From Vibrio marisflavi CECT 7928 (GTDB lineage: Bacteria > Pseudomonadota > Gammaproteobacteria > Enterobacterales > Vibrionaceae): a DNA stretch of 64,000 nt. The position numbers were made by a program, and so were the translations under genes. Shown in pieces: positions 52,225 to 56,499 of this stretch (position 1 is its first letter; each line of letters starts with the position of its first letter). The notes beneath the pieces are model-generated. The model was not told where the DNA came from, did not search any database, and saw only the letters and a list, made by a program, of their open reading frames with translations. The stretch lies in assembly GCF_921294215.1 (NCBI RefSeq), contig NZ_CAKLDM010000001.1, positions 868,001-932,000 of the forward strand, given 5' to 3'.

Positions 52225-53127
52225 TTAAGGCGCCGCATCTACTTCTACTGGTAAGTAGTGCTTAGGCTCCAATTTAAACCATTCTGGCAATACTGTACCG
52301 ATAGAGATAGAAGACCATGTACCTGACAAGATACCGATAAACATCGCGGTCGAGAATCCTTGAAGAGCTTGTCCGCCCATTAACCATAGCGCTGCCACAG
52401 TAAGAAGCGTTGTGCCCGACGTTACCATCGTACGAGAGAAAGTAGCGATAACCGCATCATCGTTAATGGTCTTGATTGTATCACGCTGCCTAGCGACTAG
52501 AAGCTCACGAATACGGTCTGAAACAATGATAGAGTCATTCAGTGAATAGCCGAGTATCGCGAGAACCGCCGCAAATGTTGTCAAATCGAATTGCATTTGA
52601 GTAATAGCGAAAAAGCCCAACACCAATACCACATCGTGTAGAAGTGCCATCAATGAACCTGTCGCTAAACGCCACTCAAAGCGGAAACACAAATAACCAA
52701 GAATACACAGCAGTGATGTAATCAATGCTAATCCGCCTTGGTTTACCATGCTTTTACCAACCTGCGAGCCAACCATACTCGTGCTGACTACTTTTACGTT
52801 GTTCGAGATCTTAGACAACGTTTGAGTCATCGAAGGCTCTTTAACGCCTTTTTTAGGGATAGCATAGCGAATCAACCAACGGCCTTCTTGGCCAGCATGA
52901 GTCACACTTGCAGACTCGCCGTAAGCTGGTTTAATCACCTTCAGTAGCTCAACATTAGTTAGGCTTTGATCAACAGAAACCTCTGTCAGCATACCGCCAG
53001 TAAAATCTAGTCCCCAGTTAAGCCCTCTTACCGCAAGTGCAGCTAGAGAGATTACGATTAAAGTAACCGATACAATACCTGTGATATAACGGACTTTACG
53101 AATGTTTTTCTTAAAGAATTTAGTCAT
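52225..53127 (-). CDS. secF: Protein translocase subunit SecF (second copy, SecF2)
   Basis: A 300-residue inner-membrane protein that with SecD pulls exported proteins across the membrane using an ion gradient. It has six predicted segments, the first-loop motif GLDFTGGMLTEV and, in segment four, ILGYSLNDSIIVSDRIRE, the diagnostic SecF motif. Its SD overlaps the end of secD, and the ATG comes 3 bases after the secD stop. Given the vemP gene upstream and no yajC, I infer this is the SecDF2 paralogue. Confidence 0.96.
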   Translation of the reverse strand: MTKFFKKNIRKVRYITGIVSVTLIVISLAALAVRGLNWGLDFTGGMLTEVSVDQSLTNVELLKVIKPAYGESASVTHAGQEGRWLIRYAIPKKGVKEPSMTQTLSKISNNVKVVSTSMVGSQVGKSMVNQGGLALITSLLCILGYLCFRFEWRLATGSLMALLHDVVLVLGFFAITQMQFDLTTFAAVLAILGYSLNDSIIVSDRIRELLVARQRDTIKTINDDAVIATFSRTMVTSGTTLLTVAALWLMGGQALQGFSTAMFIGILSGTWSSISIGTVLPEWFKLEPKHYLPVEVDAAP

Positions 53128-53130
53128 AAC

Positions 53131-54951
53131 TTAAACCTTTAGACCTCGACGTCCATCGCGACCCCAAACCAAGTTGATAATTGCACGTGAAGCAAATACC
53201 CCAGTAAACATACTCGTCAATAGACCTAAACCTAAAGTCATTGCGAAACCAGCAATTGGACCATTACCGATTGAGTACAGAATAACCGCGGTAATCATAG
53301 TTGTTACGTTTGCATCAAGAATGGTAGCAAATGCAGTGCTAAAGCCTTGATCTATAGCTTGAGCTAGAGAACGCCCCTCTCGAAGCTTATCTCGTATCCT
53401 TTCAAATATCAGTACGTTGGTATCTACCGCCATACCGACCGTCAGAACTAAACCTGCAATACCTGGCAAGGTCAGAACTGCACCCGGTAAAAGAGCGATC
53501 AAACCAATAAGTGAAACCATGTTAATTAGCAAAGCGACGTCCGCAACCCAACCTAAACGACGATACCAAAGCGCCATAAATGTTAGCGTAAGGCCCATAC
53601 CTAATGCCAAAGCAGCGAAACCATTGTGAATGTTTTCCGCACCTAAAGAGGCACCGATAGTTTGCTCTGCAACAATAGTAACTGGCGCTGTTAGAGAGCC
53701 TGCACGAAGTAATAATGCTAGTTGCTGTGCTTGCTGTAAGCTTCCAGCACCCGTGATTCGGAACTGGCTTCCCAACTTAGATTGGATGGTCGCGACACTG
53801 ATTACGCGCTCTTTACGTTCAGTTTGACCTTTCGCATTAGTTTGGTATTCACGATAAACCGTAGCCATTGGTTTGCCAATGTGAGTACCAGAGAATTGGC
53901 TCATTAGCTTACCGCCAGCGTGGTCAAGTGAGATATCCACTTCTGCCATGCCCATTTTATCAACGTTTGCTCGTGCGTTGATGATGTGCTCACCGGTTAA
54001 AACAGGACGACGGTTCAACACAACATTTTGACCTTCATTGTTCTTTAGAACGATGTCATCAGCAGTAATAGATTGTGTTGAAGGAATCACTTCATGGAAC
54101 GCTAAACTTGCAGTTGCACCGATGATTTTCTTCGCTTTAGTCGGATCTTGAACACCCGGCAAATCAATCAGAATTTTATTCGCGCCTTGTCTTTGCACTA
54201 ATGCTTCCGTGATCCCCAACTGTTCAATACGATCACGCATAATCTTCAAGTTTTGCGTTACCGTTGCGTTTTGGAACTCTTCACGGTTTGATTTTGTTGG
54301 AACAACTGTCAACTTGTCAGAGTAGTGTTTAACCGACCAACCTGAATAGTTGCTTTGAATGTAGTTTTGTACTTTGTTAAGCGCTGAAGAATCGTTGCTT
54401 GTAACGTCAAAACCTACGGCAGTGTCATTTTTGAACCTTACACCGTAAACACTTGACTTACTTAACATGTCTCTAATGTCGTCAACCATCGTGTCGCGCT
54501 GCTCAGAGAATGCTTTATCTACATCTACGTTTAGAAGGAACTGTACACCACCACGTAAATCCAAACCAAGTTTGATTGGAGCGAAGCCCATGTCTGTTAA
54601 CCACTGAGGTGCAACAGAAACGAAAGAGTACGTGATTGTATCTTTCTTACCCACAAGCGGGTCTAGAGCTTGGCGTGCTAGCGTCTGGTCATTTTCATTG
54701 TTGAAAATTAACGTCGTTTTCTCACCTTTTTGAGTGATTTTATCAACGTCAATGTTCTTTTCTTTTAGGTAGCCTGCCATTTTAGCGACTGAGCTTATCG
54801 CTTCATTTGGGTGAGCCATTGTTAATTGAATCGAAGGCTGTTCGCCGTACCAAGTTGGTATAGCACTGAGACCTAAAATGACCACTGTGACTATCAAAAA
54901 CACATATTTCCATTTGGAATAGTGATTTATAATACGTTTATTGTTCTTCAT
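53131..54951 (-). CDS. secD: Protein translocase subunit SecD (second copy, SecD2)
   Basis: A 606-residue inner-membrane subunit with a large periplasmic domain (residues 35-440) between the first and second of six segments. The P1-head entry motif LGLDLRGGVQFLLNVD is at about 128, and the RND-type segment-four motif GIAGLVLTVGMAVDTNVLIF carries the ion-relay Asp. Vibrios have a sodium-driven SecDF1 and a second SecDF2 that works in low sodium. This gene is not in the yajC-secD-secF cluster but follows vemP by 197 bases. An AGGA site lies 5 bases before the ATG, just downstream of a hairpin (54966-54983). Confidence 0.95.
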   Translation of the reverse strand: MKNNKRIINHYSKWKYVFLIVTVVILGLSAIPTWYGEQPSIQLTMAHPNEAISSVAKMAGYLKEKNIDVDKITQKGEKTTLIFNNENDQTLARQALDPLVGKKDTITYSFVSVAPQWLTDMGFAPIKLGLDLRGGVQFLLNVDVDKAFSEQRDTMVDDIRDMLSKSSVYGVRFKNDTAVGFDVTSNDSSALNKVQNYIQSNYSGWSVKHYSDKLTVVPTKSNREEFQNATVTQNLKIMRDRIEQLGITEALVQRQGANKILIDLPGVQDPTKAKKIIGATASLAFHEVIPSTQSITADDIVLKNNEGQNVVLNRRPVLTGEHIINARANVDKMGMAEVDISLDHAGGKLMSQFSGTHIGKPMATVYREYQTNAKGQTERKERVISVATIQSKLGSQFRITGAGSLQQAQQLALLLRAGSLTAPVTIVAEQTIGASLGAENIHNGFAALALGMGLTLTFMALWYRRLGWVADVALLINMVSLIGLIALLPGAVLTLPGIAGLVLTVGMAVDTNVLIFERIRDKLREGRSLAQAIDQGFSTAFATILDANVTTMITAVILYSIGNGPIAGFAMTLGLGLLTSMFTGVFASRAIINLVWGRDGRRGLKV

Positions 54952-54956
54952 ATACG

Positions 54957-55160
54957 TCCTATTTCCTCAAACATATGCTTGAGTATTCGTAGTATGTTTT
55001 TAAAGTAAGATAGTTGATAGCGATAAACCTGTAGCATTCACTACAGTCTCGCTAGATAGCTGACATCAGCAAACACCAACACTTAATCCTATACGAGCTC
55101 AAAAAGCCCAAATAGAGATAAGAGTACACTGTGTACTGATAAGAGAAATTAAGAATATTG
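54957..55160 (-). promoter_or_regulatory. vemP-secD leader: arrest site, hairpins and secD ribosome site
   Basis: The mRNA between the predicted VemP stall codon (55158-55160) and the secD ATG contains hairpins at 55123-55137, 55059-55070, 55029-55046 and 54966-54983. The last ends a few bases before the secD ribosome site (AGGA, 54957-54960). UCUAUUU (complement of 55110-55116) can pair with AAAUAGG over the ribosome site, and AUUUC at the vemP stop can pair with GAAAU there. Known VemP control works by a stalled ribosome freeing the secD ribosome site; which pairing does it here is inference. Confidence 0.6.
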
Positions 55161-55607
55161 ACTGTTTAGCGCCACATATTGGGCGTTACTGTCCTTCCAC
55201 CCGGAAATTCGATGGCTAGAATTGTGCTCTACACTGGTCTTAATCGCAGTAACTTGAGATGAACTCTGCGTCGACGGGATAGCTTGTGCATTAAGCTTAT
55301 TGCTATTCGGGTGAACTGGCTGGTTATTATCCGATTCTGCTCTCGATGAGCTCCATCGGCTTACGCCTAAATTCTCAAACGTCGAAGATTTATCTTGGCT
55401 TGCTGAAGAATCTGGAGAGCACTGAGTTGTCTCGTTTTTGCCACATTCACCGAACGCCTCTTTGAGATCAACTTGAGAAGTTGTTTGAAGCGTTAAACGA
55501 GAAGAAGACCCATTCGTATCATTTTGTAGCAGGGTCGCCATCGCTTGCGAAGGCAAAATTGTCGCAAGGATTGAGATAACAAAATATCTTAGAAAGCGAA
55601 TCGGCAT
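55149..55607 (-). CDS. vemP: VemP: secreted regulatory nascent chain controlling secDF2
   Basis: A 152-residue protein with a signal peptide (MPIRFLRYFVISILATILPS, cleaved near Ala24), a Ser/Gln/Asn-rich unstructured middle, and the C-terminus HRISGWKDSNAQYVALNSQ at 132-150 followed by two residues. That end closely resembles the arrest sequence of Vibrio alginolyticus VemP, which stalls on the ribosome near its C-terminal Gln until pulled by the translocon. Stalling raises secD2-secF2 translation when SecDF activity is low. Here the Gln150 codon is the likely stall point. The adjacent KDSNAQ differs from the KETNAM I recall for V. alginolyticus. No clear ribosome site precedes the ATG. Confidence 0.9.
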   Translation of the reverse strand: MPIRFLRYFVISILATILPSQAMATLLQNDTNGSSSRLTLQTTSQVDLKEAFGECGKNETTQCSPDSSASQDKSSTFENLGVSRWSSSRAESDNNQPVHPNSNKLNAQAIPSTQSSSQVTAIKTSVEHNSSHRISGWKDSNAQYVALNSQYS

Positions 55608-55743
55608 TTACAAAACGATAGTTATATAAAATCTAGCGTGAATACTAGGGATTCGCTTGTCAATCTGCAACTAAAATTTTCTAAAAGCGATTCTGGTGAT
55701 TTGAGTTGGCCAAATAACCACCTGATTTTCTAATAACTCAATA

Positions 55744-56409
55744 TCATTCAAATATCTGCCCTGTTTTGACGTCTAGGTAGATTTTATTAGATAGCTGTAG
55801 TCCGCCACAGTATACAAAATAGACTTCTCTATCCTTGTATTTAACAGATTTCACCCACCCTTCCAATTCCTGGAAATCTTGAGGTCGGCACTTGTCTTCT
55901 TTTAACAGTGTATCTGTTGCCTTTAGAAAAGCGGTTTCATGCAGTTTAAAGTCATCTGATTTACCAACAAATGAAATCAATGTTGCTCGACGTTCTTCCT
56001 CCGTAATGACGGGGGGAGAAGTGGCAAGGCCTACCATTGGTAACCAATCAGCCTCTTCTTTCCCTCCCTTGGAATAGACGTAATATCGAGAAATTCTGCC
56101 CCAGTCGCCTTTTCGCTCCAAAATCGTCACTTTCTCCCCTCGATACATATGATCATTGATAAACGCATCGTAGCTAGGGCCATCGCGGACACCTAACTCT
56201 TCGGTACTAACAAAGTATTCAGTAATAGGCTTCGGTGGCGGTGCTTTCTTTTCTTCTGTTTTGACTGGCTCTTTTTTTGGCTTTTCAATTTTTTTAGGCT
56301 TTTGAAGTTTTTTTGCGTCTTGCTCAGGCTTCAAAACAAAAATGTAATAGCCTCCACCAGCGCAGGCAAGCCCGAGAACAAGCAGTAACACCATCAACAA
56401 TTTTTTCAT
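55744..56409 (-). CDS. Membrane-anchored SH3-like domain protein
   Basis: A 221-residue protein from the ATG at 56409. One N-terminal membrane anchor (LLMVLLLVLGLACAGGGYYI) is followed by a Lys/Pro/Glu-rich linker (residues 35-65). A bacterial SH3-like domain lies at about 70-125 (FVSTEELGVRDGPSYDAF, VTILERKGDWGRISR). The C-terminal region has Cys residues in DKCRPQDF and VYCGG, possibly disulfide-bonded. SH3b domains often bind cell wall or peptides. It is upstream of vemP on the same strand, 136 bases apart. Function unknown. Confidence 0.75.
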   Translation of the reverse strand: MKKLLMVLLLVLGLACAGGGYYIFVLKPEQDAKKLQKPKKIEKPKKEPVKTEEKKAPPPKPITEYFVSTEELGVRDGPSYDAFINDHMYRGEKVTILERKGDWGRISRYYVYSKGGKEEADWLPMVGLATSPPVITEEERRATLISFVGKSDDFKLHETAFLKATDTLLKEDKCRPQDFQELEGWVKSVKYKDREVYFVYCGGLQLSNKIYLDVKTGQIFE

Positions 56410-56499
56410 GAAGCACTTCTCCAAAATATCGAGAGGTAAGGCTGATATTTTTCCCTATACTTACAATTATCACATAAACAACGTGCGTTGGATCACCTA

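Follow-up and report, generated by a model that had tools for sequence, protein, structure and literature searches.

A 64,000-nucleotide stretch of the Vibrio marisflavi CECT 7928 genome (the window) very probably carries an arrest-regulated secD2-secF2 operon under VemP control, from a Vibrio close to V. sinus, a reading that draws on gene order, on the homology of the encoded proteins, on a second secDF in the same genome and on conservation in relatives. In the list of open reading frames (ORFs) of the window, vemP, secD2 and secF2 follow one another in this order, all on the minus strand, and are succeeded by a terminator-like hairpin:

55149..55607, minus strand: vemP, a secretion-monitor/arrest peptide of 152 aa (ATG at 55607, stop 55151-55149)
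54952..55148, minus strand: vemP-secD2 intergenic region of 197 nt, with AGGA at 54960-54957 as the secD2 ribosome-binding site
53131..54951, minus strand: secD2, protein translocase subunit SecD, 606 aa
52225..53127, minus strand: secF2, protein translocase subunit SecF, 300 aa
52166..52201, minus strand: intrinsic-terminator-like hairpin of 15 pairs with a T-run, 3' of secF2

The sequence-only reading had proposed a complete vemP-secD2-secF2 operon; its coordinates, lengths, gene order and Gln150 position were right, and it left the minus strand unmentioned. The window SecD scored 986.7 bits against NF009545 (SecD; cut-off 728) and the SecF 264.7 bits against TIGR00966 (cut-off 160); the suffix '2' of secD is given on gene context and the VemP literature. 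Terminator-like sites in the region numbered 4 against 3.8 expected by chance, the one after secF2 being the longest.

The C-terminus identifies the first gene. The protein ends in HRISGWKDSNAQYVALNSQYS (residues 132-152), with Gln at 150, and its residues 125-152 matched chain s of PDB 5nwy, the 'VemP nascent chain', at E=1.4e-5, the sole match at E<=10 among 177,635 sequences; the similarity to VemP that had been read from the letters therefore holds by alignment. Full-length single-sequence matches outside the divergent clade described below reach E=2.7e-18 in other genomes, while the VemP profile match in the genome itself (E=6.1e-47) is not independent, the window protein being in the alignment. 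No NCBIfam or Pfam family matched the 152-residue protein at E<=0.001, and its named relatives are mostly called 'hypothetical protein', as had been anticipated of automatic annotation, with a few UniRef entries titled 'Uncharacterized protein', 'Lipoprotein' or 'Inverse autotransporter beta-domain...'.

The C-terminal VemP motif HRIxGWKETNAMYVxLNxx / RxxxWKxxNxxY is present with the deviations E->D, T->S and M->Q, of which E->D and T->S are common in the VemP family. Our VemP alignment comprises 181 distinct sequences, 74 taken from loci and 107 from the protein database, and ten arrest-region residues (R, G, W, K, N, Y, V, A, L, N) do not vary in it; its counts refer to sequences, many closely related, rather than to independent events. 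At the other end of the protein, Met1 and Pro19, within the signal-peptide-like segment, are invariant in a 30-row VemP alignment. In V. alginolyticus the arrest codon is given as Asn-156 in PMC11470409 and as Gln156 in PMC5449182, and the sequence printed in the latter has Gln.

VemP proved widespread in the family. A single-sequence query found matches in 69 of 148 genus genomes, and the 30-row alignment, at E<=0.001, in 238 of 329 family genomes and 8 of 13 genera, many of these matches being weak. By title, 66 named loci comprised 60 from Vibrio, 4 from Photobacterium, 1 from Thaumasiovibrio occultus and 1 from a Vibrionaceae metagenome-assembled genome. secD lay downstream of the VemP-like ORF at 96/96 loci, a total of two sets in which species are partly repeated and the window itself is included, and secF followed secD at 66/66 named loci, where, SecD and SecF being related, we required the best SecF match to lie after SecD and to exceed 150 aa and 100 bits. 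A VemP-like ORF also preceded secD in all 15 further stretches, mostly weak-match picks. That the window protein might be an isolated one was considered and dropped: searching the protein database with the single sequence gave 3 relatives and with the 30-row alignment 153, the best 120 of them covered here, a matter of sensitivity. A 2024 survey reported 339 VemP-like sequences from 339 genomes (PMC10987492), and this together with the wide spread in the family makes the operon one of a known kind.

Two side observations concern the more distant relatives. In nine of the 15 fetched stretches (L132-L138, L140 and L146), divergent VemP-like ORFs of the same family upstream of secD keep the anchor R[ILV]S[GA]WK[ED]SNL[LT]Y and differ in the ending that follows it (for example SQRLYPHA, TVYHHRLS and VQLSRDS), suggesting variable residues near the peptidyl-transferase centre alongside a constant tunnel anchor. 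In Vibrio sp. HDW18 (L087), the vemP-secD operon lies on a 599 kb record titled plasmid p_unnamed1, and its alignment row has Leu in place of the conserved spacer Arg, which may be an alignment matter.

Searching the genome with SecD2 returned one other full-length SecD, 44% identical, at C2:2158287-2160119, on a contig (C2) separate from that of the window (C1). The genome's sole YajC match (C2:2160227-2160460) lies beside this other secDF in the order yajC, secD1, secF1 on the fetched stretch (L035), secF1 being named from its translation and a weaker match in the SecD2 search; yajC is absent from the vemP-secD2-secF2 operon. Both points, the operon lacking yajC and a yajC-linked secDF1 elsewhere, agree with what the sequence-only reading had put forward. 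It had also named the lack of a second secDF, or of C-terminal similarity to VemP, as computable grounds for giving it up; a second secDF is present, and the C-terminus aligns with VemP. With a second, yajC-linked secDF, the genome fits the pattern of two sets reported for Vibrio, in which SecDF1 is sodium-dependent and SecDF2 is proton-dependent and induced at low salinity (PMC7897499). The two SecDF sets here may share this ion use, and the same sodium-linked regulation, as earlier proposed, would by analogy apply.

By the same analogy, with work on V. alginolyticus, the window VemP may be expected to arrest, at the corresponding site, to be released by export and to have low sodium as its natural trigger. 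VemP would carry a Sec signal when made; folding of its C-terminal region in the ribosome tunnel would halt elongation with Gln150 in the P site, and the stalled ribosome would open the secD2 start, leading to synthesis of SecDF2. House-keeping, yajC-linked SecDF1 would pull VemP across the membrane, cancelling arrest and keeping SecDF2 low. When protein export fails, VemP would jam its own ribosome and a backup export motor, SecDF2, would be switched on.

We then compared the leader RNA across loci. The 197-nt leader, folded with 22 nt of secD, is more structured than its shuffles (z -2.71). Pairing of the secD2 ribosome site with the region from -25 to +15 around the vemP stop, a quantity computed in this analysis rather than taken from papers, averaged 0.41 over 66 loci against 0.10 in shuffled sequences, and reached at least 0.5 at 26/66 loci against 0/66 shuffle means (12 shuffles per locus, start codons placed by 16S-tail energy; 67 loci entered and 66 were scored, L075 dropping out). 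This excess over shuffles is in keeping with the site being unmasked when a ribosome stalls immediately ahead of the vemP stop. In a first set of folds, in which start codons were misplaced for some loci, 16/66 loci opened by >0.2 on stalling and 2 closed. Predicted folding supports an RNA switch for part of the VemP family, and does not robustly reproduce it for the window. Strong pairing was seen, for example, in V. harveyi, V. diabolicus, V. europaeus and V. tubiashii, and not in V. coralliilyticus, V. neptunius or V. sinus; leader length ranged from 51 to 236 nt over the 66 loci (L037-L102).

The window VemP belongs to a divergent clade of five sequences, the others being those of V. sinus (L006/L037; 77% identical to it), the database proteins P0001 (82%) and P0002 (76%), and V. 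profundum (P0003; 55%); against the 25 non-clade rows of the 30-row alignment, its overall identity is 24-34%. In a SecD2 tree the window and V. sinus form a pair (support 100/100, stem 0.43) that is left unplaced among other Vibrios; the bootstrap is unsettled and the branch to the SecD1 outgroup very long. The parts of the protein that matter for the comparison are as follows:

55536..55607, minus strand: signal-peptide-like segment, residues 1-24, with a basic start and hydrophobic core and ending in SQAMA; read by eye
55419..55445, minus strand: Cys55...Cys63 (CX7C), then Ser64-Pro65; a pair found in the clade only
55413..55415, minus strand: Pro65, likely counterpart of V. alginolyticus Pro67, at -19 from Arg84 and not -18
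55368..55379, minus strand: residues 77-80 (FENL), where the short hydrophobic segment would lie; no longer hydrophobic at the canonical distance from Arg84
55356..55358, minus strand: Arg84, counterpart of V. alginolyticus Arg-85, Arg in 179/181 rows
55152..55214, minus strand: arrest region, residues 132-152, from the PDB match and the VemP alignment
55181-55179, minus strand: Gln143, in place of Met149, from the VemP alignment
55160-55158, minus strand: predicted P-site residue Gln150, within the arrest region

The arrest region had been called near-identical to that of VemP. This stands for the last 21 residues taken together, 17 of which are those of the V. alginolyticus VemP of PDB 5nwy, with the qualification that the Met149 position is polar here and hydrophobic in 176/176 sequences outside the clade; two of the three cancellation elements mapped in V. 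alginolyticus also depart. At window position 143, which corresponds to Met149, two clade sequences have Gln and three have His, and the other 176 sequences have Met (110), Leu (63) or Phe (3). The mature part before the conserved Arg carries the CX7C pair in 5/5 clade sequences against 0/174 others, although one or two mature Cys occur there in 36 of the 174; these counts, and those for the Pro and the hydrophobic segment, exclude L087 and P0105, the two rows that lack the Arg. The Pro lies at -18 from the Arg in 167/174 others, and in the clade at -19 (4) or -21 (1) with a Cys two residues ahead of it. The (Hphi)xP motif with its Pro at -18 is accordingly not found in the window, which has Pro at -19 and Cys at -21; of the 167 rows with Pro at -18, 125 hold S, Q, T, R, E, K, H or D at position -20 and the remaining 42 hold P, A, L, G or V, so that none has Cys there. 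This motif and the hydrophobic segment are cis elements mapped in V. alginolyticus VemP, not published family criteria.

Residues -7 to -4 from the Arg, where that hydrophobic segment lies, have a Kyte-Doolittle mean of 2.92 (sd 0.78) in the 174 others, against -0.10, -0.10, -0.10, 0.07 and 1.02 in the clade; the window FENL (-0.10) lacks a short hydrophobic segment at this place, and 3/174 other VemPs are likewise at <=0.2. A weaker hydrophobic run, LGVS (1.70), directly abuts Arg84, and 5/77 rows score lower for the best 4-residue run in the 12 residues before the Arg. Weakened and displaced describes the segment in the clade better than absent does, and weakness by itself is shared with a few other VemPs.

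Published work on V. alginolyticus suggests what these changes might do. Arg-85 is needed there for regulated cancellation (PMC7793623), and arrest is destabilised by a less hydrophobic segment, by replacement of Pro67 or by a Cys, Ala or hydrophobic residue at 65 (PMC11470409). By these rules arrest of the window VemP should be easily released, with the proviso that its Pro is retained at a shifted place. Arrest in the clade may be shorter-lived, or other residues may compensate, with the Cys pair as a candidate compensator; thresholds have probably been retuned, given the changes at the Met149 position, in the hydrophobic segment and in the (Hphi)xP motif. Going by the published model, the Cys pair would be on the periplasmic side during arrest. 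We found no description of the clade features in the available part of the survey of VemP-like sequences (PMC10987492), and no mention of the Cys pair among those titles and abstract openings listed from the open-licence literature on VemP and disulfide, V. sinus and V. profundum.

Several observations weigh against an arrest-regulated operon in the window. In the clade's arrest helix the Met149 counterpart is polar, and in the V. alginolyticus Ala scan replacement lowered arrest at 17 of the 19 stalling-window positions, S141 and S155 being the exceptions (PMC5449182). The predicted pairing of ribosome site and stop region is weak or absent in the window (0.14) and in V. sinus (0.00). When at least 60 nt of secD are folded, exposure is alike with or without the vemP end (AGGA 0.33-0.38, GAGG 0.26-0.29), and a separate fold of the window gave a secD2-site exposure of 0.40 with it and 0.40 without. 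When 20 nt of secD are folded, removing the vemP end raised GAGG exposure from 0.04-0.08 to 0.36, and took AGGA from 0.09 to 0.36 from one start point and from 0.48 to 0.36 from another; because the outcome depends on the length folded, we claim no switch for the window leader, and an alignment of the window and V. sinus leaders (n=2) is too small for covariation. We saw no arrest assay of the window VemP in those portions of the open-licence literature that our search covered. Taken at their strongest, such points would mean that arrest has been lost or weakened in the clade, the C-terminus persisting by descent and secDF2 being more or less constitutive: the polar residue at the Met149 position is found in 5/5 clade sequences and 0/176 others, the canonical hydrophobic slot is gone in 4/5 clade rows and weak in the fifth, and the leader pairing is weak or absent in both the window and V. 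sinus. Against this, the ten invariant arrest residues are kept in 5/5 clade rows even though V. profundum is only 55% identical overall, while the spacer has drifted far more, with 34/103 columns invariant in the clade; we regard loss or weakening of arrest as very unlikely.

An alternative that is a special case of the VemP-controlled operon rather than its opposite is that a periplasmic Cys55-Cys63 disulfide does part of the hydrophobic segment's job, so that release would need both the Sec motor and DsbA-type oxidation. The restriction of CX7C to the clade is consistent with this, as is the block around the pair, the best conserved 16-residue stretch of the clade spacer (11/16). Five related sequences nonetheless amount to one evolutionary event, Cys is tolerated before the Arg in other VemPs, and some of these also have a weak canonical slot; on balance we consider such a disulfide rather unlikely. 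The combined proposal that the clade's sensor has been rewired, with an arrest helix weakened by Met149 -> Gln/His and the disulfide replacing the hydrophobic pause segment, appears quite unlikely; if true, one nascent chain in the V. sinus/V. profundum clade would report both Sec motor force and periplasmic oxidation. That an unrelated secreted protein matches VemP by chance is extraordinarily improbable: nothing more than the low identity outside the C-terminus speaks for it, and we rejected it on the PDB match, the full-length matches in other genomes and the secD downstream at every locus. The VemP-controlled operon is the reading that we retain.

Around the operon, a 226-aa ORF (55744-56424, minus strand) shares the strand of vemP and stands 136 nt upstream of it; its SH3 match falls short of the Pfam cut-off, and a relative is present at 51/66 named VemP loci. 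The 45 nt preceding vemP (55608-55652, minus strand) are, by eye, the same in V. sinus at 39/45 positions; we saw no clear Shine-Dalgarno sequence ahead of the vemP ATG in these 45 nt and found no consensus promoter before vemP. An Rfam scan of the window gave nothing at gathering score, and ARAGORN found no tRNA within it.

The operon alone is ordinary in a Vibrio; it holds some interest as a natural variant that departs from a much-studied sensor. As an arrest peptide that senses force, VemP serves as a model, and it was in the V. alginolyticus protein that its cancellation elements were mapped; a clade that has kept the invariant tunnel residues while three elements changed together offers a natural test of whether the rules are general or tuned to a lineage.

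Compared with the V. alginolyticus VemP-SecD2-SecF2 system (PDB 5nwy; PMC5449182, PMC7793623, PMC11470409), the window is alike in gene order, in a separate secDF1 in the genome and in a regulator of similar length with a signal-like N-terminus (152 residues against 159, with 17/21 C-terminal residues shared and a counterpart of Arg-85). It is unlike it in having Gln for Met149 and the CX7C pair, in the (Hphi)xP Pro shifted by one residue with a Cys at -2 from it, in a weak hydrophobic segment adjoining the Arg and in a secD2 site with little predicted pairing to the region of the vemP stop. With the VemP-like cluster of the 2024 survey (339 sequences with an RxxxWKxxNxxY-like motif; PMC10987492) it shares the motif (RISGWKDSNAQY) and the place upstream of secD. 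SecM-SecA, MifM-YidC2 and ApdP/uDF are alike in using a nascent substrate to monitor the export machine and to control a downstream gene, whereas their arrest sequences are unrelated to that of VemP and their targets partly different (PMC7897499, PMC10987492).

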